From a virus, in the IMG/VR virus record IMGVR_UViG_3300010150_000042, positions 1-42,526 of that record: a DNA stretch of 42,526 nt; one strand, 5' to 3'. A model generated the notes under the pieces. It was not told the origin of the DNA. It did no database searches and saw nothing but the letters and a program-made list of their open reading frames with translations. The position numbers were made by a program, and so were the translations under genes. Shown piece by piece: positions 14,119 to 28,924 of this stretch. How positions within the stretch are numbered: position 1 is the first letter of the stretch; every line of letters begins with the position of its first letter.

Positions 14119-15093
14119 ATGGCTGGTCCAATAACACTTGAAGCTGGAAGCTATCCAGTAGCCGCTGATGGGTTACAGGGATTTCGTGAACTGACAGCAA
14201 CTCAAATTAGGGAACAGATCGCTGGTGTTATTACCCAAAAGTTTGCTACTGATACGGATGGGTCTGGTACTGCTGAACTGAATGTTGTCACTGGAGGTTC
14301 TGCTGGTTCTGATGAGATTGGTACTTTCTCAGACAGAGCAAGAACGGAATCCGTGGGAACTCACCCCGCAGCTGGCACTCTCACTACAACTACATTTCGT
14401 TTCAATCAACCCGTTGCGAGTGTGAGTGAGTCCGGTCAAATCAGACCATTGCGATGGACAAACACATCCGTAGATGAAATGACGGACGGAGAAATTGATT
14501 CCGATATTTTAGACGAAGTTATCCAGGCAATGGCAACGGAATCTGCTAACACAGTAGGACAGTATAAAATCGATACTTCTACCCCTTCTGGTGGAACGTG
14601 GACCGCTCGGTATACTATCCCAGATACGCAAACCGATGGCACTACCATAAACTATTATCTTTGGCAAAAAACTGCGCCGACAACGGATGCAGGTTCTGAT
14701 ACCAATATGCTTCTCCAAACTGATGTAGATGGTAACATTGATGAGATGGCAGACGCTGATGTAGAAACTCTAGTTCCTGCTTTCAGAAACAGAATCATTG
14801 CTTCTGGTGTTGGTACATATTTACTACAAACTGGTTCTCCGACTGCTACTGGGACTTGGGCTCAGATGGGTGGAACCATGACCGACCAAGTTAAAGACAT
14901 TGTTTCAGAAAATTATTCTGGTGAATATGCTGGTTCCTATGTTGGATACTATGACAGAATATTCAACGGATTCTTGGAAGGTGCCTATGCTGGTACATAC
15001 TCAGGAACTTACTACGGTGAGTATGCCGGTAACACTATTCAAACTTCTAGTTCTACTCAGGAAACGAAACAACTCTTTATAAGAACTGCTTAA
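14119..15093 (+). CDS. Appendage protein with YxG-rich tail (324 aa)
   Basis: Probable virion appendage; family not recognised by name. An N-terminal region (LTATQIREQIAGVITQKFA) is followed by a duplicated domain. Copy one runs from DEMTDGEIDSDILDEVIQ to PSGGTW and copy two from DEMADADVETLVPAFRNR to TATGTW. Residues 265-305 are a tyrosine/glycine repeat (EYAGSYVGYY, then AYAGTYSGTYYGEYAG) that should form short strands. A clear AAGGAG ribosome site precedes the ATG. It is the last gene before the accessory island. Confidence 0.65.
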   Translation: MAGPITLEAGSYPVAADGLQGFRELTATQIREQIAGVITQKFATDTDGSGTAELNVVTGGSAGSDEIGTFSDRARTESVGTHPAAGTLTTTTFRFNQPVASVSESGQIRPLRWTNTSVDEMTDGEIDSDILDEVIQAMATESANTVGQYKIDTSTPSGGTWTARYTIPDTQTDGTTINYYLWQKTAPTTDAGSDTNMLLQTDVDGNIDEMADADVETLVPAFRNRIIASGVGTYLLQTGSPTATGTWAQMGGTMTDQVKDIVSENYSGEYAGSYVGYYDRIFNGFLEGAYAGTYSGTYYGEYAGNTIQTSSSTQETKQLFIRTA

Positions 15094-15097
15094 CCAT

Positions 15098-15127
15098 TTG
15101 ACATATATACTAGATGAGTGTTATAAT
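15098..15127 (+). promoter_or_regulatory. Consensus sigma70-type promoter
   Basis: TTGACA at 15098-15103 and TATAAT at 15122-15127, separated by 18 bases. Both boxes are perfect bacterial consensus. It stands at the head of the accessory island and differs from the TATAAATA elements elsewhere, so the downstream genes may be transcribed early by the host RNA polymerase. A 7-bp inverted repeat (ATGAGTG/CACTCAT) straddles the -10 box. Confidence 0.65.
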
Positions 15128-15147
15128 GCACTCATAGTATTTTTTAT
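15114..15147 (+). terminator. Weak hairpin with T-rich tail
   Basis: ATGAGTG (15114-15120) pairs with CACTCAT (15129-15135) around an 8-base loop, and is followed by AGTATTTTTTAT. This could end transcription of the upstream fibre genes. The stem is short and the same DNA overlaps the promoter, so an operator role is an alternative. Confidence 0.35.
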
Positions 15148-15162
15148 AGTATGAGGAATATC

Positions 15163-15600
15163 ATGGAACCCCAACCAAAATATCGCAACCCCCGCTGGAT
15201 CAACAAAGAGAACCGCAGAGTTTTCTGTGAGATTCTTATTGGTGACGTTTACCGCCCCTGTAACATCAACGTTGGAAATCCAGAAGAAGGACTAGTCAAC
15301 AAAGACTTTGATGCGATCATGGAAGAGTTTGGAGAAGAGGTGTTGAATGAGAACACCAAACTTCACAAAGAAGGTGTTGACGAAGAACATAAGAAAAGAG
15401 AAGAGATGCAGGAGGTTCATGTAAACAGGGTGAAACAAGAAACTCTGTTTGAAATGAAACTGCAAGCATTTGAGTCCGAGTACATCAAAAACTCTGACAA
15501 CAAAGAATTCAAAAAACTTCTTAGAAAATCAAAGTCACTCATCGAAGTACAAGCAATCGCGACTATTCTTATTCAAGAAGAACTCAATAAGTCAGAATGA
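15163..15600 (+). CDS. Hypothetical protein, possibly tail-associated (145 aa)
   Basis: Function not recognised. I chose the ATG at 15163 over the in-frame ATG at 15151 because TGAGGA lies six bases before it. The first 45 residues (NPRWINKENRRVFCEI, then the region of VYRPCNINVGNPEEG) loosely recall short phage tail-associated proteins with a 'NP.W.N....I.CEI' start. Residues 60-145 are highly charged and helical, likely coiled coil. It is the first gene after the sigma70-like promoter and overlaps the next start by four bases, so it is probably co-transcribed with the glycosyltransferase. Confidence 0.6.
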   Translation: MEPQPKYRNPRWINKENRRVFCEILIGDVYRPCNINVGNPEEGLVNKDFDAIMEEFGEEVLNENTKLHKEGVDEEHKKREEMQEVHVNRVKQETLFEMKLQAFESEYIKNSDNKEFKKLLRKSKSLIEVQAIATILIQEELNKSE

Positions 15601-16325
15601 ACGGATATCTATATGTAGCGACAGTCAGATATGAATATTATCTGGCTGCGAAAGAGTCTGCCCTGTCCCTTCTAGATTTTCACCCAGAAGCTAATATTTG
15701 TTTATTTACTCTACCAGAATGGGTAGAAGAAGAAGATCATGAAATATTTGATCGCATTGTCACGGACATACCCAATCACACTAGAACAAAACTATGGGCT
15801 CTATCAAGAACACCATATGATCTGACACTCTATGTAGACTGCGACACATGGGTTCAGAGTGAAGACATCCAAACTATATTTAATTATATTGAAGACAATG
15901 ATATAATCTTCACTCGCAATCGACCCTACAATTCAAAGATCACTCAACTAAATGAAGAAGAAGAGATGATCTACCATTGTGGCATTTTTCTGTACAGGAA
16001 GAATATGCAGATAGTTGAGTTGATGGACGATTGGTATGAATACTATTGCAAACAGATCAACAGAGATCACGATATGAGTCCGTACCCAGAAAAGGCCAGA
16101 CCTTGGGATACGTTTACCATGTGGTACTTACTAAATAAAACCAAACATAAAGATACCATAAAGATAGGAGATTTTCCATCACCAGATGCGAGGTGGAATT
16201 TTTGTATGGGGCAAAGGCCAGAAGAGTTAGAAGGTCAAGATGTAATCATCACTCACTACAGCTTAGGAAATGTCACACTAAATGAGAAGCATACCAATAA
16301 ATCAAGAGCTGCACAAGTTTCTTGA
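15597..16325 (+). CDS. GT-A-type glycosyltransferase (242 aa)
   Basis: Predicted nucleotide-sugar-dependent glycosyltransferase, cytoplasmic. An N-terminal Rossmann-like strand (GYLYVATVRYEYYLAAKESA) is followed by the metal-binding DxD motif in YVDCDTWV (Asp81, Asp83), typical of GT-A folds related to GT8 and similar families. A later 'YHCGIFLYRKN' strand fits the acceptor-side sheet of that fold. It starts on the ATGA overlap with the previous gene. Its sequence differs from the four minus-strand glycosyltransferases in the island (no WGxKY motif). Sugar and acceptor are unknown. It is not a T4 alpha- or beta-glucosyltransferase of DNA, which have a GT-B fold and no DxD. Confidence 0.75.
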   Translation: MNGYLYVATVRYEYYLAAKESALSLLDFHPEANICLFTLPEWVEEEDHEIFDRIVTDIPNHTRTKLWALSRTPYDLTLYVDCDTWVQSEDIQTIFNYIEDNDIIFTRNRPYNSKITQLNEEEEMIYHCGIFLYRKNMQIVELMDDWYEYYCKQINRDHDMSPYPEKARPWDTFTMWYLLNKTKHKDTIKIGDFPSPDARWNFCMGQRPEELEGQDVIITHYSLGNVTLNEKHTNKSRAAQVS

Positions 16326-16890
16326 CGATTATATTTCTTGGTTCAATAAGAAAGATTTTAAACTCCCAACCGAAGAAAACCACAAGGACGGTTTGGGGAT
16401 GGATTACTATTGTTCCAAGGAATATCTAGACACCGTAATAGAAAAAGGCAAAGATCACAGAGGTCCGCCAGAGTTTGGTATTACATGCAGTTTGCAAAGA
16501 AATACAAATGTACCAGAAGATGCTAGATTAAAGTCACTGGAGTTTTGTTCTTCCCTATCTTCTTATCTGGGAGCAAAGTATACTGCGGTACATGTATACT
16601 ATCCACCAAACGGATTCATGTCGTGGCACTGTAATTGGGATTGTCCCGGCTACAATATTCTATTATCTCATAGTGACGGTGGTGGATTCTTCAGATACCT
16701 AGAAGATGGTGAGATCAAAAACACCCAAGACCCAGCTGGATGGTCTGTTAAGGTGGGATATTATGGTAGTAAAGATGAGACACCATATTGGCACTGCGCG
16801 GGGTCAACTAGTCCTAGACAAACTATTGGATTTGTTGTTCCAGATAAAAATATGTGGGAGATGATGGTAGAGGATATTAGTGCAGAATGA
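16282..16890 (+). CDS. 2OG-Fe(II) oxygenase-like protein (202 aa)
   Basis: Probable double-stranded beta-helix protein of the 2-oxoglutarate/iron oxygenase type. The strand HVYYPPNGFMSWHCNWDCPG gives His116 with Asn118 and Asp120. A distal 'PYWHCAGSTSPRQTIGFVV' supplies His171 and Arg179, the expected second iron ligand and 2OG-binding arginine. The usual HxD is HxN here, with an Asp two residues further on, so metal binding could be altered or lost. The start overlaps the upstream gene by 44 bases, which is long, and the ribosome site is weak. A role in modifying a sugar, peptide or nucleotide in the island pathway is inference. Confidence 0.6.
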   Translation: MRSIPINQELHKFLDDYISWFNKKDFKLPTEENHKDGLGMDYYCSKEYLDTVIEKGKDHRGPPEFGITCSLQRNTNVPEDARLKSLEFCSSLSSYLGAKYTAVHVYYPPNGFMSWHCNWDCPGYNILLSHSDGGGFFRYLEDGEIKNTQDPAGWSVKVGYYGSKDETPYWHCAGSTSPRQTIGFVVPDKNMWEMMVEDISAE

Positions 16891-17645
16891 GTTTGATGCA
16901 CAAAGAAGGCGATCAACTCTGGCCAAAAGTTAAAACCGTTGACGATGGACGGGTTGTTGGTTATGAATCTAACAGCATCACCGAATATTTGTTATCCGAC
17001 AATCCAAATTTTTCTAGCTACAATGAACACTATGGTCACCGAATATCATATGACTTCAATTTTGCTGGACACAGAACACCAAAAACTTTTGATAAAACAA
17101 ATCACTTCTTAGTTGTAGGTGGTTCTCAGACCTTTGGTATTGGAGTTCCAGAAGATAAGTGCTACCCATCAATGATTGCAAAAAGTTTGGGTATGGACTA
17201 TTACAACATGTCTTTGCCTGGTGTGTCGCATGACATAAACATTTCAAATCTATTATGGTATCTATCCACATACTCTCCCAGATTTATATTGTGGGAGTGG
17301 TTATTCGATTCAAGAAATTATATAATTCTTCCGCATATGGATGATATGGTTCTCCCTCTTATTTCAACCCATGTACAAAAATATGAAGAGGTGTTTGATC
17401 TGCGTGGACTGTCGGAATTTTTTCTGTCTTGCAATGACATTGGATATAATAAATCTCGCAGATTGCTGCATGAGATGGCATTAAAAAATATTTCTAATAT
17501 GCATCAAGTCTATCAATTTGATTTCAACAAGGACTTTGAAGTAAATTCCGTTGACGTTGGCAGAGAAGGATTCCACTACGGAATTGATACTCACCAATCA
17601 ATTGCAGACAGTTTAATCAAAAGAATCCTTCCTTCTGGCCGATAA
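16887..17645 (+). CDS. SGNH/GDSL hydrolase-like protein (252 aa)
   Basis: Predicted SGNH-fold esterase or acyl hydrolase. VVGGSQTFGIGV places a nucleophile serine at Ser80 in a GxSxTxG context (block I). NMSLPGVSHD (Gly112) resembles block II. The C-terminal GREGFHYGIDTHQSIADSL resembles block V, where Glu227 stands in for the usual Asp, with His230 or His236 as catalytic histidine. No signal peptide is visible. Proteins of this fold in glycan clusters often add or remove acetyl groups; that role is inferred. The ATG overlaps the previous stop, and the 3' end overlaps the convergent methyltransferase-like gene by 29 bases. Confidence 0.65.
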   Translation: MSLMHKEGDQLWPKVKTVDDGRVVGYESNSITEYLLSDNPNFSSYNEHYGHRISYDFNFAGHRTPKTFDKTNHFLVVGGSQTFGIGVPEDKCYPSMIAKSLGMDYYNMSLPGVSHDINISNLLWYLSTYSPRFILWEWLFDSRNYIILPHMDDMVLPLISTHVQKYEEVFDLRGLSEFFLSCNDIGYNKSRRLLHEMALKNISNMHQVYQFDFNKDFEVNSVDVGREGFHYGIDTHQSIADSLIKRILPSGR

Positions 17646-18300
17646 TCATAAACCTATCGTATTCTTTTTTTCCGTCCCAAGAGTGATAAGTTTGTTTGAT
17701 GGTGCCCTCAAATTCTGCATCAGGCAATCCGATCTGATCTTTTAACTCTTCAATAGAACCCACACAGTTTATACCATACATCTCTTCAACCACGTTAGAG
17801 TTTTGCATGGCGAATACTGCATTGGGATTCTTTGTAACTAGTTCTTCTAGGGGATACATTTGTTCTGTGTGAATACAGATCACAACATCTACTTCAATCT
17901 TGTTGAGGTTTTCAAACTCAAATGGGATATCCAAATTCCAGTGTCGAATGTTGACAAACTTTTCTTGGGCGTAGTGTTTGTGAAAAATCTTTGACAACTC
18001 AATCGACTCTTCATCCAAGTCAACCATGTGAATCTGTGCTACGTCTAGGTTCTCACAGATCAACGGGACCATAGGCATTCCTAACCAAGAATTTAGGATC
18101 AGTACTCTGAGACTCCCAGGCTTTGCATAGTATTCATCAAGATACTTTTGTAGTTCCTCGACCAACCAAACACTTGATTCCACGTTGTTCTCTGACAAAG
18201 ACTGTCTGAAGTCTGCCAGTTTGTGTGGCATCTTATGTTCTATGATACTTAGGGCCTCGCCCCAGTGTTTGAAATTATTTAAGAAATTAAAATTTAACAT
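17617..18300 (-). CDS. Class I methyltransferase-like protein (227 aa)
   Basis: Possible S-adenosylmethionine-dependent methyltransferase. Strand one is SLRVLILNSWLGMPMV, a degenerate form of the usual 'VLDxGxGxG' SAM loop. Strand two is IHMVDLDEESIELS, with the acidic residues that normally hold the ribose. Then come 'NIRHWNLDIPF' and strand four 'VDVVICIHTEQMYP'. The weak glycine loop means activity is uncertain. I chose the ATG at 18300; the upstream TTG at 18324 would lengthen the overlap with the preceding gene. It is the last gene of the minus-strand operon. Confidence 0.6.
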   Translation of the reverse strand: MLNFNFLNNFKHWGEALSIIEHKMPHKLADFRQSLSENNVESSVWLVEELQKYLDEYYAKPGSLRVLILNSWLGMPMVPLICENLDVAQIHMVDLDEESIELSKIFHKHYAQEKFVNIRHWNLDIPFEFENLNKIEVDVVICIHTEQMYPLEELVTKNPNAVFAMQNSNVVEEMYGINCVGSIEELKDQIGLPDAEFEGTIKQTYHSWDGKKEYDRFMIIGQKEGFF

Positions 18301-18961
18301 CTTCACTTTTTCCCATTGAGTCAAATATACAAATGTATGGTAGTTCTCGGTAGGTATGTTTTTCTATGTCGTGGGGAAAAACAAATCCTTGGTTGAAACT
18401 ATACACCCATCCAAGGGGGAACAGTTTTGTTTTGATTACTCTTCTGTTGTAGAAGAAGTTATCAAGACCACGATAATACCACAGTATTTGTTCTTTATAC
18501 TTGTTGAAGTATTCGGTTAGTTCTCTAGTATTTAGACTGTCATTCCAACGCAACACGGATGAGTTTAAATCCGTAAACTTGTGAGGAATGTGTCTAGTGT
18601 CTTTGTATTGTGTTTCAAGATCGTGCCACCAAGTCTTTACCATACACAAACAATCTTCTGGGTCATACTCAGCTATCACATCAACATTTTTTTGGATGAT
18701 GGTGTCAATGTCAAAAAACATCTTCTCGCCTTTTTGGGTCACGATGCTGTCGTCGAACAGGTACATCTTGTTCCACCACTTTTGTAGTTTGTTGCCGCCC
18801 GGCAGAGTCAAAGGCTTAATCGATGGGTCCAATCCTTTGGGGTCTTCTGTTAGACAGAAAAAATCAAAGTCACATGTTAGATATTTCAAACACTGTTCAT
18901 AGATACTGTTGACATGTTGGTGATTATATTTGTCACCCCACTTTACGGTATAGATGTTCAT
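18287..18961 (-). CDS. Glycosyltransferase paralogue (224 aa)
   Basis: Predicted GT-A glycosyltransferase. It opens with IYTVKWGDKYNHQHVNSIY, the 'KWGxKY...VN' signature shared in this operon. The DxD is in FFDIDTIIQ (Asp84, Asp86). A late 'GWVYSFNQG' strand also recurs in its neighbours. I chose the ATG at 18961 over the TTG at 18967. The start overlaps the stop of the upstream gene by four bases and the stop overlaps the downstream methyltransferase-like gene by 14, so the operon is tightly coupled. Donor and acceptor are unknown. Confidence 0.75.
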   Translation of the reverse strand: MNIYTVKWGDKYNHQHVNSIYEQCLKYLTCDFDFFCLTEDPKGLDPSIKPLTLPGGNKLQKWWNKMYLFDDSIVTQKGEKMFFDIDTIIQKNVDVIAEYDPEDCLCMVKTWWHDLETQYKDTRHIPHKFTDLNSSVLRWNDSLNTRELTEYFNKYKEQILWYYRGLDNFFYNRRVIKTKLFPLGWVYSFNQGFVFPHDIEKHTYRELPYICIFDSMGKSEDVKF

Positions 18962-19770
18962 CGCCAATGCTCCAGTAATTTAGGATCAGCAAGTTCATCT
19001 TGTTTCGTGTGACCTCTACTCTTATCCTCAAAGGGCAACAGATCAACGTTGAACACGCAGATGATGCAGTTTGGTCTGTAGATACCAACGTTCAAATCGT
19101 CTTCATCCCATGACCGACCACGGTTGTATGAGTATGCCATCCAAGAAGGAAAGTGATCCCACAAGTCTTCACCGTATCTACCCCACTTCCATGAATGATA
19201 GTTATCGGTTCCGTCAGTGTATGTGAACCAAATCTTCTTTTGATTTTTTAGCACATCTTCCCAGATACACTCACACTGATCGTCTGACCACACTTGACAC
19301 GATCCGTTTGTATATGCACCATGAGCCAACTTAAATTGTCTAGTCTCCATTGGTCTGGGGTCTTGCCACCAAGACTTCATCTTGGTGGGTCTTTCCATGT
19401 TATATGTTATAACAGGTGTAAGATCGCGTTGAATGATAACATCCAAGTCAAAAAAAACAAAACGTCCAGTAGGCTTATCAGGAGCAAAATTATGGGTATT
19501 AAAAACAAAAGTTTTAGGACGATCCCAACAGCGGGCCATACCATACTTAAAATTTTCACTGCCAAACCAATACTTAGGATGAATATCAGGAATGTCAGGA
19601 AAAGGGATAACATTAACATCATCATCAAATCCTTCAGAGTTATCGGTGTAGCAATAAAAGTGAAACTCAAACTTGTCTGGAGTATTTCTTTTTGCCATCT
19701 CTTTCAATCTGTTGACGAAGTGTGGACCGTATTTGGTTCCCCACTTACAACATACATAATTTACTCTCAC
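18958..19770 (-). CDS. Glycosyltransferase paralogue (270 aa)
   Basis: Predicted GT-A glycosyltransferase. Signature start VNYVCCKWGTKYGPHFVN, DxD in FFDLDVIIQ (Asp108, Asp110), then a 'KSWWQDPRP' segment and 'WMAYSYNRGRSW' near residue 215. It shares 'HP.YWFG.ENF/Y' and 'DGTDNY' with the N-terminal domain of the 835-residue neighbour, so those two are the closest pair and probably arose by tandem duplication. The start is GTG at 19770 in a GTGA overlap with the upstream stop, a sign of translational coupling. Confidence 0.78.
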   Translation of the reverse strand: MRVNYVCCKWGTKYGPHFVNRLKEMAKRNTPDKFEFHFYCYTDNSEGFDDDVNVIPFPDIPDIHPKYWFGSENFKYGMARCWDRPKTFVFNTHNFAPDKPTGRFVFFDLDVIIQRDLTPVITYNMERPTKMKSWWQDPRPMETRQFKLAHGAYTNGSCQVWSDDQCECIWEDVLKNQKKIWFTYTDGTDNYHSWKWGRYGEDLWDHFPSWMAYSYNRGRSWDEDDLNVGIYRPNCIICVFNVDLLPFEDKSRGHTKQDELADPKLLEHWR

Positions 19771-22274
19771 TTACACCCCCCACATCTTTTGGTGCATATG
19801 TTTAACGGTTTTCGTTTTAGGTGTTGACTTATATTTTCAAAGTCGTGATTGAATATTACTTCACCAACAGAGAACTTACTTAGATCATTATACCGTCTAT
19901 TGTAGGTATAGTCAAGGGGATGGTGCGGCAATAGTTTATTTTCTTCTACGTCTCTAGAAATAAAGGCGCAGGGAAACGCATTTCCAGCTGAGTTGACATA
20001 GAAGTAGCCAGACTTTCTTGAGTCACACCACACGGGGTCTCTCTCTTTCATTTTTCTTTTGATCGGTCTTATCTCATCTGACTTCTTGAACATTTTCAAA
20101 GTCTCTAGGTTCACGGGGATGTCACTTGCTATTATCTCTGTTACCCCGTTTTCTGATTCTGCTTTCTGTGGCTGCGGCACATATTGTAAGTTGTCAATGT
20201 AGATTGGTTTGATAAAATTTTTGTTATATGTCTGTACGGTGATGGTAACATTTTTTTCTTTGAAGTACTTACAGATGTCCTCTAGGTGTTGCGACTTTGT
20301 GGGGTCAGAAGTTTCGCACATAAACGTGACCCAGTTGACTTTGAATTTGTCAAATATATTCTTGATCGATGCCGGGCTGTGTTCTTTGCCGTTTACAAAT
20401 AGGTCATTGAATTCATCTCCGGTGTCGTTCTGCGTTGTACTCAATTGAATCAGAGCTCCATCTGGAGCACCGTCATCATACAGTCCGTGATATAGGTCAC
20501 TGAATTGTTCCCCATGCATTTGAAAGTATTTTATCAGAGTGTCGTTGTCCGATACATTGTCTTGATTTAGAATCGACAACAACTCTTGTTTCGGCATGAT
20601 ATTATACAGACGTTCAAATACTTTTTCATAGTCTTGTTTATAGAATAGTTCCTTTAGAGTATTAACATAATATTTTTTATACAATGCCTGTATGTCCGAC
20701 TCCGATGAATCCCAAAATATTCTTTGTAACCCATGTTGTTTGATGTTTTCCATAACATCGTGTTTGATTTTAGGAAGTGTATTATTCTTCCAAAGTCTTT
20801 TGTAAAGAGCAAAACATTGTAGATTGCTGACGTTCCAAAAGTATCTCACTGGCCCACAATCTTTTGCCTCTTTATATACTACTCGTTGCATCTTGTTGAT
20901 ATATCTTTGTTTGTAAAAATCATAGATATCATCTGCATCTTTATTCCAATATAGAGATTGGTCACCTTCTTGGAGTAGTCTGTCTTCTGGGAAGTCTGCA
21001 CAAAATTTCAAGTGCATTGATATCATGTCACCAGATTCAAATAAATCCTTGATGACTCCTTTGTGGTGAGGTTCGATCATCCTGATAAACTTCATGTCTG
21101 AGACTTCACGTTCTAGTTCTGGAACAAGTTTTTTGACTTCTTCCACGGGTTTGGCAAAGTATTCTTTTAGTTCTGGAAAGTCTTTGATTAGTTTCTCAGA
21201 CAAAGATTGTAAATCATTTTGGTCAACCAGACTTTTGATTGACGATACCACATCTTGATTCATGTAGTTTTTTTCTAGTGAGTCATCTGATACGGAATCA
21301 AATCCCAACCACTCACGCAGAGTTTCAAACTTACTCGAATACTTTTCCCAATCATCTTTCAATTGGGGCAGGTCTTTCTCAAACTTTGACTGCAATGTAT
21401 CGTAGTCTTTGTTCTTCAAAAGTTCTGATATTTTATCGGTGTGTTTGTTTTTGGTAAAAAATGTACTAGGAAATTTGGGCAACCAAAGTCTTTCAAACTC
21501 TGTCTTGCCGTGCCAGTGTATCAGAAGGTTATAGTCCTTCACATCATGCGGTTTAAAAAACTTTGTTCTCTTGGGTACAACTGGTGCTTCAAAGATACAA
21601 AACTTTGGTTCTTCCCTGTATAGATGCGGAGTAACATCATCTGGGTATTGTTGGCCGCGATTATAAGAATACGCCCACTCCGAGGGAAGGAAAGACCAGT
21701 ACCCATCCCCTACCACTTGGTGTTCTCTCCAAGGATAGTAATTGTCGGTTCCCTTCCAGAAGGTTTTGAATATCGTGTCCTTGTGTTTTAGGACATCATT
21801 GTAAATTTTTTCCCCTGCATCGTTACACCACAACATTACGCTGGAGTTATGCAGAGTGCCTCTTATGTCTTTGAAACGTCTATCATGCAACACTGAGGGA
21901 TTTTCCCAGTTTGAATACAACATGTGTGGTGTTGCAGAGAGTTCAAATATGTCATCGATGTTGTTTTGAATGACAACATCTAAATCAATATAACAGAACG
22001 GGCCCTTGGTACGCAACCAATGGTGAGAATTTAGTACTAGAAATTTTGATCTGTCCCAACAGTAGTTCTCTTTGCCGAACCAGTAGTCGGGATGCAGTGG
22101 GTCAACTCTGGGTATTGATCGAATGGTTATGCCTTTGTCAATACCATCTGGATCATCGGTGTAACATATAAACTTGTGCCGCTTGGTATAGTTCTGTTGA
22201 ACCATGTTGCGTAAATTGTTTACATATTCTGCCGAGTACTTATTTCCCCATTTCATGCAGAGAAAGTGCATCAT
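19767..22274 (-). CDS. Glycosyltransferase fused to degenerate radical-SAM/SPASM-like domain (835 aa)
   Basis: Three-part protein. Residues 1-270 are a GT-A glycosyltransferase: start FLCMKWGNKYSAEYVNNL, DxD in YIDLDVVIQ (Asp97, Asp99), 'WAYSYNRGQQ' near 215. Residues 290-600 are helical, with two repeat types: one like 'LVDQNDLQSLSEKLIKDFPE' and one like 'FWDSSESDIQALYKKYYVN'. Residues 609-835 look like a radical-SAM protein whose cluster cysteines are lost: IQLSTTQNDTGDEFND replaces the expected CxxxCxxC strand, followed by 'VTFMCETSDPTKSQHLEDI'. The end keeps a SPASM-like set of cysteines (Cys750, 769, 827, 831, 834; GNAFPCAF and ICTKRCGGCK), which could still bind an iron-sulfur cluster or zinc. 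The start is the first of two adjacent ATGs. The fusion has no T4 counterpart. Confidence 0.72.
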   Translation of the reverse strand: MMHFLCMKWGNKYSAEYVNNLRNMVQQNYTKRHKFICYTDDPDGIDKGITIRSIPRVDPLHPDYWFGKENYCWDRSKFLVLNSHHWLRTKGPFCYIDLDVVIQNNIDDIFELSATPHMLYSNWENPSVLHDRRFKDIRGTLHNSSVMLWCNDAGEKIYNDVLKHKDTIFKTFWKGTDNYYPWREHQVVGDGYWSFLPSEWAYSYNRGQQYPDDVTPHLYREEPKFCIFEAPVVPKRTKFFKPHDVKDYNLLIHWHGKTEFERLWLPKFPSTFFTKNKHTDKISELLKNKDYDTLQSKFEKDLPQLKDDWEKYSSKFETLREWLGFDSVSDDSLEKNYMNQDVVSSIKSLVDQNDLQSLSEKLIKDFPELKEYFAKPVEEVKKLVPELEREVSDMKFIRMIEPHHKGVIKDLFESGDMISMHLKFCADFPEDRLLQEGDQSLYWNKDADDIYDFYKQRYINKMQRVVYKEAKDCGPVRYFWNVSNLQCFALYKRLWKNNTLPKIKHDVMENIKQHGLQRIFWDSSESDIQALYKKYYVNTLKELFYKQDYEKVFERLYNIMPKQELLSILNQDNVSDNDTLIKYFQMHGEQFSDLYHGLYDDGAPDGALIQLSTTQNDTGDEFNDLFVNGKEHSPASIKNIFDKFKVNWVTFMCETSDPTKSQHLEDICKYFKEKNVTITVQTYNKNFIKPIYIDNLQYVPQPQKAESENGVTEIIASDIPVNLETLKMFKKSDEIRPIKRKMKERDPVWCDSRKSGYFYVNSAGNAFPCAFISRDVEENKLLPHHPLDYTYNRRYNDLSKFSVGEVIFNHDFENISQHLKRKPLNICTKRCGGCK

Positions 22275-22974
22275 AATATTTTTTTCTCAACTCATCTTTT
22301 GCAGTTAGACCATTCATAATCACGATTGGATATTCTGGTTTTATTTTATATCCTCTTGGGGATACGTCTGTGTCGTAATCTACTCCGGCTTGAAACGAGT
22401 ACATCAATCCCTTGGGAAATGTGTTGTCGAAGAGTTTTTCGTGGTATAAAAATCTATCGTCTCCACAGTATTTAGTCATAAAATATTGATCGTTATCTTC
22501 AAAGTAGTCGTAGATATATCTCGCGTCATTCCCGTTCCATGCCATCACGCTGGAATTCCACAATCCCAACCACTTATATGTCCAAGGTAGATCATCAGAA
22601 CCATCGTCAAAATGATACTTTTTTGGTTTGTTGTAGATTTTATTCTCACTGGTATCCCACGGAGCCTTCCAGTAACAATAACAAATTGTTGGTTTTGAAC
22701 AGTGGTCGAACAATTTGTCTAGACTACCCTGTATTATAACATCTAAGTCTAGGTAAAGGCAATCCCCTTGCCAATTATTTTTGAATATTTTTATCTTCTC
22801 CCAGTGTCCCTCTGGTTCTTCTATTCGGATTTGTTTTATATTTTTGTTAAGGTGTTTGCTGTTCTCGTCATCTACGATGCATATATGATTGTACTGTTTG
22901 GTTTTATCATAAATATAGTGTACGTCATCCGCACTATACTTTTCACCATAAAGAACCGTCACAACTGTTTTCAT
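22240..22974 (-). CDS. Glycosyltransferase paralogue (244 aa)
   Basis: Predicted GT-A glycosyltransferase and first gene of the minus-strand operon. It starts VVTVLYGEKYSADDVHYIY (the YGxKY form of the operon signature), has DxD in YLDLDVIIQ (Asp76, Asp78), a 'WNSSVMAWNG' strand near 140-150 that matches the 'NSSVMLW' of the 835-residue protein, and 'GLMYSFQAG' near 195. A purine-rich AGAAAGAGA lies a few bases before the ATG. The 3' end overlaps the next gene by 35 bases. I could not define a minus-strand promoter in the short gap upstream. Confidence 0.76.
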   Translation of the reverse strand: MKTVVTVLYGEKYSADDVHYIYDKTKQYNHICIVDDENSKHLNKNIKQIRIEEPEGHWEKIKIFKNNWQGDCLYLDLDVIIQGSLDKLFDHCSKPTICYCYWKAPWDTSENKIYNKPKKYHFDDGSDDLPWTYKWLGLWNSSVMAWNGNDARYIYDYFEDNDQYFMTKYCGDDRFLYHEKLFDNTFPKGLMYSFQAGVDYDTDVSPRGYKIKPEYPIVIMNGLTAKDELRKKYYDALSLHEMGK

Positions 22975-22988
22975 AATATTCTCTTTCT

Positions 22989-22996
22989 TATAAATA
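22989..22996 (+). promoter_or_regulatory. T4-type late promoter
   Basis: TATAAATA in the 44-base divergent gap between the glycosyltransferase operon and the plus-strand fibre cluster, 23 bases before the start of the first fibre-cluster gene. It restarts late transcription of virion genes after the island. Confidence 0.75.
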
Positions 22997-27946: not shown

Positions 27947-28454
27947 TGGAACAATCAGTCTCAACGATATACACATTGAAGCTGGGGGATCATCAGGTAC
28001 ACTTTGTAGCATCAACGACTCAGATATTCGTGGACTTATAGGAAAATCGTCGGGTGCGGCATCCTCGTTTAGCAACTTCTATGGTGCATCTGCTGTTTCT
28101 GTAAGTGTGTCTAGATCAAGTTGGTATAACACTGGATCAGGAACAAGCAGTAGTAAGTGGACAGGATACTCACAGAACAAATCACACAATTCTCAGGCAA
28201 ATATTTATTTTAATGTTTCTGGAGGCACTGCTACGTTTAATGTGAACGCTGTAATAAGTAGTGAACGAAACTATGACTTTGGATATGTTTATAACGGAGG
28301 ATCACAGTTGTGGCGTCAGTCTGGTAGTGGTTATAGTTACAACAACAGCAGTTTATCGATTGGAGCAGGGTCGTACTTACGTTTAAGATATACTAAAGAC
28401 TACAGTGTTTCTAGTTATGGAGACGATTTGACACATACAGTATATTGGTCATAG
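27930..28454 (+). CDS. Fibre-associated structural protein (174 aa)
   Basis: Probable virion adhesin or fibre component. The N-terminus (ALQSSGTISLNDIHIEAGGS, then 'SINDSDIRGLIGKSSGA...FSNFYGAS') is a conserved marine-phage module that often precedes variable adhesive domains. The C-terminal 100 residues are Ser/Tyr/Gly-rich (SGSGYSYNNSSLSIGAG). It starts with GTG at 27930, 17 bases inside the previous gene, behind an AAGGAG site. That overlap suggests coupling to the S74 fibre. Confidence 0.7.
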   Translation: MALQSSGTISLNDIHIEAGGSSGTLCSINDSDIRGLIGKSSGAASSFSNFYGASAVSVSVSRSSWYNTGSGTSSSKWTGYSQNKSHNSQANIYFNVSGGTATFNVNAVISSERNYDFGYVYNGGSQLWRQSGSGYSYNNSSLSIGAGSYLRLRYTKDYSVSSYGDDLTHTVYWS

Positions 28455-28462
28455 GTAAAAAA

Positions 28463-28924
28463 ATGAATTATTCTTACGAAATCTTAAAAGCAGAACCCAA
28501 ACACAAGTTCCTCAGTGTTAGATATTTCGCTGAAGGAAAGGATGATTTTTTCAAAAACTTCAATCCAGAAAATTGGGAAGCAGAAGCGATTACTGGTTTA
28601 ATTGAAGATCACGCTCAGTTTGTCGTTGCACACTGGGACTATCAAGAAACTGCTACTGAAACTAGTCCCCTGTCTGTGGGTGATATCGGCACATCAAGTG
28701 CGACCGCTTGGACTCCCCCTCCTCCGCCTGGGTTTGATGACCCTACACAAGAAGAGATGGTTAGACAGGAAAGAAACTATCTATTGAGAGAAACTGATTG
28801 GATGATGTTTTCTGATACAGACTCTCCTTCTCAGGCCTGGTTAGATTACCGCCAAGCATTACGAGACATTCCAGAACAGTCTGGGTTTCCAACGTCGGTC
28901 ACTTGGCCCACCAAACCCGCATAA
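28463..28924 (+). CDS. Tail fibre assembly chaperone-like protein (153 aa)
   Basis: The C-terminal 60 residues (RNYLLRETDWMMFSDTDSPS, then 'WLDYRQALRDIPEQSGFP' and 'VTWP') match the tail assembly chaperone domain found in many tail-fibre assembly proteins (Phage_tail_APC type). The N-terminal half has a small mixed domain ('YEILKAEPKHKFLSVRYFAE'), and a proline run (WTPPPPPGF) links the two. I chose the ATG at 28463, behind AGG at eight bases, over an upstream TTG. It probably helps fold or attach the adjacent fibres rather than being part of the virion. Confidence 0.78.
   Translation: MNYSYEILKAEPKHKFLSVRYFAEGKDDFFKNFNPENWEAEAITGLIEDHAQFVVAHWDYQETATETSPLSVGDIGTSSATAWTPPPPPGFDDPTQEEMVRQERNYLLRETDWMMFSDTDSPSQAWLDYRQALRDIPEQSGFPTSVTWPTKPA

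Follow-up and report, generated by a model that had tools for sequence, protein, structure and literature searches.

A conserved glycosyltransferase-rich module linked to a fibre gene in a lineage of marine T4-like viruses

The viral record IMGVR_UViG_3300010150_000042, analysed here as a single window over its whole length of 42,526 nt, derives from a T4-like myovirus: its terL is 51% identical to that of cyanophage S-H9-2, and its sheath, portal and major capsid genes were identified by reading the sequence. Nine packed open reading frames (ORFs), of which neighbours overlap or abut, occupy positions 15151–22974 between fibre genes, a block which a preliminary description had singled out as a surface-modification island. 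All nine ORFs were found, with boundaries essentially as originally drawn, the starts of MT, GT2 and GT3 having been adjusted slightly from relatives. The forward genes are, in order, orfA, GT1, OG and the SGNH-like gene, and the reverse genes, in order of transcription, GT5, GTSP, GT3, GT2 and MT; these five are, as had been claimed, the only sizeable minus-strand coding genes of the window.

14119–15093, plus strand: g14119, fibre-like protein with six C-terminal YxGxY repeats; proposed substrate
15151–15600, plus strand: orfA, small protein of no known family; candidate fibre chaperone
15597–16325, plus strand: GT1, GT-A/GT8-like glycosyltransferase, DxD at residues 81–83
16282–16890, plus strand: OG, 2-oxoglutarate (2OG)-oxygenase-like protein of prolyl-hydroxylase fold, with H116-x-N118...H171 and R179
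16887–17645, plus strand: SGNH/GDSL-like protein, GGSQTFG and GIDTHQ blocks by inspection; swappable accessory
17617–18300, minus strand: MT, Rossmann methyltransferase-like protein
18287–18961, minus strand: GT2, glycosyltransferase, phrog_1962 (9.7e-11)
18958–19770, minus strand: GT3, glycosyltransferase with a GTG start at 19770; most conserved gene of the block
19767–22274, minus strand: GTSP, with GT-A domain (residues 1 to ~260), helical middle, truncated radical-SAM-like part (~602–700) and SPASM/twitch cysteines (750–834)
22240–22974, minus strand: GT5, glycosyltransferase, phrog_1962 (7.4e-13); first gene of the reverse block

The family labels proposed earlier were almost all right. 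All five glycosyltransferases (GTs), namely, GT1 (over 48 sequences), GT2, GT3, GTSP and GT5, have an invariant DxD motif; the phage GT family phrog_1962 is matched by GTSP (1e-4) as well as by GT2 and GT5, and GT1 aligns with GT5 across the DxD region (hhalign 86%). Matches of the GT profiles to the PDB are weak (glycogenin, the best match of GT1, E 0.08; Skp1 galactosyltransferase, E 0.023), and sequence searches with OG, GT3 and GTSP against the PDB returned nothing meaningful. The oxygenase fold of OG was borne out by structure comparison, and the labels of MT and SGNH are weakly supported, by Pfam matches below the cut-off to Spermine_synth (E 0.0018) and DUF6473 (E 0.0036), respectively. 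The NCBIfam search gave no match above the cut-off, GT3 and MT had no match among the cultured phages of the collection searched, and a DNA-level search of the block against phages likewise gave none.

Comparison of about 220 related, partly overlapping viral loci revealed that the same gene order is kept wherever the sequence suffices, with a few distant exceptions. A scan with GTSP recovered 63 viral loci, all syntenic. When the flanking fibre g14119 was used as the query, so as to avoid the bias of queries from the block itself, all those of the 80 recovered loci that reach far enough displayed g14119, then orfA, GT1 and OG on the plus strand, MT, GT2, GT3, GTSP and GT5 on the minus strand, and finally the fibre gene g23019. 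Two further scans with OG reached more distant relatives with the same arrangement, apart from loci of the C48C1 and L233 types and L187–L189 (L numbers denote compared loci). GT3 is ~75%–93% identical throughout the lineage. Paired over loci, its identity exceeds that of the sheath (7/7), the neck protein (22/22) and g14119 (73/73), is above that of all fibres and is on a par with that of terL (GT3 higher in 8/14 pairs, mean +2.5). What varies are the fillers at a few junctions: SGNH occurs only in the clade of the window, that is, in its nearest relatives, and elsewhere Pfam matches identify a second 2OG oxygenase, an FkbM methyltransferase, a phosphomannomutase, a cytidylyltransferase, Methyltransf_24, a fatty-acid desaturase and an alternative oxidase. 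These accessory genes are largely of glycan type, and only SGNH and the other junction fillers are swappable. The alternative oxidase (PF01786, 1.8e-72; L044:16154–16732) lies between OG and MT. In a divergent clade (L121, L140 and L146), inspection of translations revealed DNA-ligase-like genes at the OG/MT and GT3/GTSP junctions and, in L140, a ThyX-like gene also inserted inside the module.

The module appears to consist of two units of different age. Phage C48C1 (OQ984149) and the viral contigs L224–L226 carry a g14119-type fibre (with YxGxY motifs in C48C1), orfA (38% identity, 1e-13, in C48C1), GT1 (31%, 1e-36) and OG in the same order as the window, followed directly by the g23019 homologue; these loci represent the natural site without the reverse block. 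C48C1 differs from the window in lacking MT, GT2, GT3, GTSP and GT5 at this locus and in having a giant fibre of 3,347 aa, and one GT distantly related to GT2, GTSP and GT5 is encoded elsewhere in its genome. In L233, L254, L257 and L265, the same front unit is joined to a different block, comprising a GT5-like GT, an MT homologue (tested for L233: 29% identity, 2e-14) and, as read in L233, L254 and L265, intact radical-SAM genes (Pfam 1e-10 to 3e-8); that of L233 additionally includes a carbamoyltransferase and a DegT aminotransferase. Because the fibre-orfA-GT1-OG unit occurs without the reverse block or with a different one, it is most simply taken as the older of the two; on this view, the reverse block was a later addition that has become fixed in the lineage of the window. 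OG of L187–L189 is encoded on the minus strand next to MT, an arrangement suggestive of cooperation between the two halves.

The fibre gene g14119 is located immediately upstream of orfA-GT1-OG wherever a contig reaches, and its product is the sole window protein with more than one YxGxY. Homologous repeats are present in the giant C48C1 fibre (L066:12–10055), and the counts in relatives rise to ~60 (near OG of L227), with a few relatives having one or none. The orfA gene, which matches no family, is kept in all loci, and its product is possibly a fibre chaperone. The AlphaFold model of OG, built with 18 orthologues (pLDDT 89.5), displays a double-stranded beta-helix of the prolyl-hydroxylase type; Foldseek matched it to the Pseudomonas putida prolyl 4-hydroxylase (5e-5), with PHD2 and AlkB-family proteins also among the matches, and the VIA comparison to a Shewanella oxygenase (Z 11.4), PHD2 (Z 10.7) and a Dictyostelium prolyl hydroxylase (Z 9.3). 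The canonical HxD/E...H facial triad is not present in OG: H116-x-N118...H171 is invariant in 17 diverse sequences, including that of C48C1, and the nearby D120 is not. R179, the basic 2OG-binding residue after the second histidine, is invariant. Since the defining acidic metal ligand is missing, we do not regard OG as a proven hydroxylase.

In GTSP, a GT is joined to a truncated radical S-adenosylmethionine (SAM)/SPASM domain that has lost its cluster ligands. GT3 is 35% identical to the N-terminus of GTSP (5e-51), and the helical middle varies in length and is missing from short forms (L128, L133). In the VIA comparison, residues 602–809 matched SuiB (Z 12.6), PqqE (Z 12.3, 2.4 Å) and BtrN (Z 12.1), the top 21 rows being all radical-SAM enzymes and the next fold scoring Z 5.8; an alignment with intact phage radical-SAM proteins gave 83% and E 9e-6 (hhalign). 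The CX3CX2C motif for the [4Fe-4S] cluster and SAM does not occur in this C-terminal part, which instead has an invariant NDT...ND stretch; by contrast, all five SPASM cysteines (C750-x13-G-x4-C769 and C827-x3-C831-x2-C834) are invariant, even though the Pfam SPASM match is sub-threshold (E 0.005–0.095). GTSP shares with SuiB and PqqE (Z 12–13) a partial barrel and a SPASM/twitch region but differs from them in its fused GT and in the absence of the CX3CX2C ligands and of the distal barrel half. Overall, the GTSP model is of low quality (pLDDT 65, and below 50 for much of the GT part), and the match of residues 1–177 to GT-A chains (Z 5.7) falls on a low-confidence part; the Foldseek result (best E 0.017) was distrusted alone until VIA gave a clear gap, and we relied on the C-terminal VIA match together with the sequence evidence. 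In some GTSP-like proteins of ~500 aa, the DxD of the GT is also lost (LVTPN or FITPN; L121:18437–19945, L131:9897–11381, L140:18666–20153). These proteins adjoin a separate, intact-looking GT, and their motif loss possibly represents further decommissioning.

On the observed linkage, fold and conservation, we put at an even chance the proposal that the module modifies the adjacent fibre, a virion protein; the substrate, the order of steps and the chemistry outlined here are the conjectural part of it. The invariance of the fibre-orfA-GT1-OG linkage, which extends to C48C1, lends support to fibre decoration. In such a pathway, orfA would handle the fibre, OG and GT1 would act first, on the repeat-rich protein, the GTs of the reverse block would lengthen the glycan or cap it, and methylation would fall to MT. 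The decommissioned radical-SAM/SPASM part of GTSP could hold the peptide or scaffold the complex, and the swappable genes, such as SGNH, second oxygenases, FkbM methyltransferases, phosphomannomutase and cytidylyltransferase, would vary the final decoration between phages. The more specific version, in which the HxN oxygenase-like enzyme and the GTs act on the Tyr/Gly-rich repeats themselves, with the GT-fused pseudo-radical-SAM/SPASM part as a peptide-recognition arm, is a speculative one that we consider improbable as a whole. In the Skp1 pathway of Dictyostelium, prolyl hydroxylation by a normal HxD oxygenase is followed by glycosylation. The module resembles that pathway in combining a prolyl-hydroxylase-fold enzyme with GT-A GTs and in its weak profile and fold matches to the enzymes involved; however, the pathway is eukaryotic, its oxygenase is HxD, and the resemblance is at the level of folds only.

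The following signals flank the module.

15098–15127, plus strand: sigma-70-type promoter before orfA, TTGACA-18-TATAAT, 12/12 match
15114–15135, plus strand: terminator-like inverted repeat with T-run; its loop contains the -10 box of the orfA promoter
22989–22996, plus strand: T4-type late promoter TATAAATA preceding the fibre gene g23019, at the block boundary

A 12/12 sigma-70 match was obtained in none of 30 simulated windows, and in 14 aligned orfA leaders, near-duplicates among them, TTGACA is invariant and a TATAAT-like box is present in nearly all. The arms of the inverted repeat differ between loci with complementarity retained. In several other clades, the late promoter TATAAATA occupies the same place in the orfA leader. 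The window contains eight TATAAATA sites on the plus strand and none on the minus strand (1.7 expected). Almost all genes of a 165-kb relative lie on one strand, so that the reverse block opposes early and late genes alike; accordingly, an early-gene orientation was rejected as the explanation for its strand.

Several of these observations weigh against fibre modification. The orfA promoter of the window is of the sigma-70 rather than the late type and no recognisable late promoter was found for the reverse block, so expression may be early; the reverse block could serve a purpose of its own; OG has HxN in place of HxD/E, and judging from this motif, hydroxylation may be absent; and, because many of the ~220 loci are the same contigs fetched by different scans, their counts are not independent samples. 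Alternatively, the module may remodel the host surface: in the infected cell, the GTs, the methyltransferase and the oxygenase would alter host lipopolysaccharide or capsule such that competing phages no longer adsorb (superinfection exclusion). The authors of the pelagimyophage study suggested such a role for the GT8-type enzymes of the equivalent region (PMC7029224). The perfect sigma-70 promoter, the reverse orientation of the block, the phosphomannomutase, cytidylyltransferase, carbamoyltransferase and DegT genes in the same region of relatives, and a second cluster, of glycan/radical-SAM-like type, at another site in a relative would all fit such a role. Nevertheless, we rank it as a serious but less likely alternative, given the invariant coupling to one fibre gene even in phages without the reverse block, the late promoter in other clades and the conservation of GT3, which is far stronger than would be anticipated if the enzyme had to cope with variable host O-chains. 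The second cluster (L155 ~6000 to L156 12421, in a 165,637-bp relative record), its ORFs read by eye, encodes several twitch/SPASM radical-SAM-like proteins along with carbamoyltransferase-like and UDP-sugar-dehydrogenase-like genes. Sets of oxygenases and GTs are also known from phage DNA modification, and the AlkB-family proteins among the Foldseek matches of OG would suit an enzyme that oxidises a base, in the manner of TET/JBP or AlkB, for subsequent glycosylation by the GTs. Yet the module is linked to genes for fibres and not for nucleotide metabolism, most of the best VIA rows of OG are prolyl-hydroxylase-type oxygenases, and the GTs are GT8-like and not of DNA-GT families, making DNA hypermodification very improbable.

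Still less probable, to the point of being barely credible, is a mobile cassette that brought unrelated cargo into the late region, an idea implied by the preliminary description, in which spot GC counts hinted at a differing composition. The GC content of the block is slightly low (0.387 versus 0.420 for the remaining coding genes of the window), close to the lowest value for a 7.8-kb window (0.385); however, terL (0.386) and portal (0.374) are equally low and GC content at third codon positions is not reduced, so that the counts are no sign of foreign origin, which was rejected. The lower GC content reflects the composition of enzymes versus structural proteins. The swappable genes at a few junctions and the C48C1 locus without the reverse block could also be taken to favour a cassette, but eight core genes recur throughout the lineage in unchanged order and orientation, are strongly conserved and are similarly placed in essentially all close relatives that could be checked, SGNH alone being patchy. 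By the comparison with relatives that the preliminary description itself put forward, the cassette idea is thus refuted for the core; it applies solely to SGNH, to comparable fillers and to the more ancient arrival of the reverse block. Eight of the nine genes belong to the lineage as a constant, strongly conserved component and are no recent cargo.

Fibre regions rich in GTs and containing radical-SAM genes have been described before (PMC7029224), and cyanophages commonly carry 2OG oxygenases (PMC3037559). The host recognition cluster of pelagimyophages, located between VrlC and the neck gene gp14, shares with our block tail fibres, GT8-type GTs and radical-SAM genes, but was described as large, non-syntenic and hypervariable (PMC7029224), whereas here the GT core is syntenic and conserved and the fillers alone vary; the block is a structured, conserved variant of that cluster. 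As far as our searches reach, the new elements are the module as a conserved entity, its assembly in two steps, the oxygenase with HxN and the fusion of a GT to a pseudo-radical-SAM-SPASM part. GT-rich islands in the fibre regions of marine T4-like phages are usually taken for hypervariable host-surface cargo. A core that matches the terminase in conservation and never parts from one particular fibre gene points towards a target that is essential in the virion (or invariant for another reason), and the module yields a short list of candidate proteins for testing that target. The fusion in GTSP represents an unusual decommissioning of an enzyme; in other lineages, the corresponding position is occupied by radical-SAM genes that are intact.

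As to the host, psbA is absent from the six relatives examined, arguing against a cyanobacterial one. A GT3 scan of a genome collection gave no host clue, recovering one 30% match and two short viral contigs (L147 and L148) in metagenome-assembled genomes labelled Bifidobacterium breve and Flavobacteriales, where they are probably mis-binned. Neighbours of the block match baseplate, head-tail adaptor, head-closure and sheath-stabiliser families; the head-tail adaptor/neck gene sits to its right, and a giant gene at the left matches phrog_358/877, of unknown function. The right-hand fibre block also includes a tail-fibre assembly chaperone (Phage_tail_APC, 6e-21) at 28445–28924.

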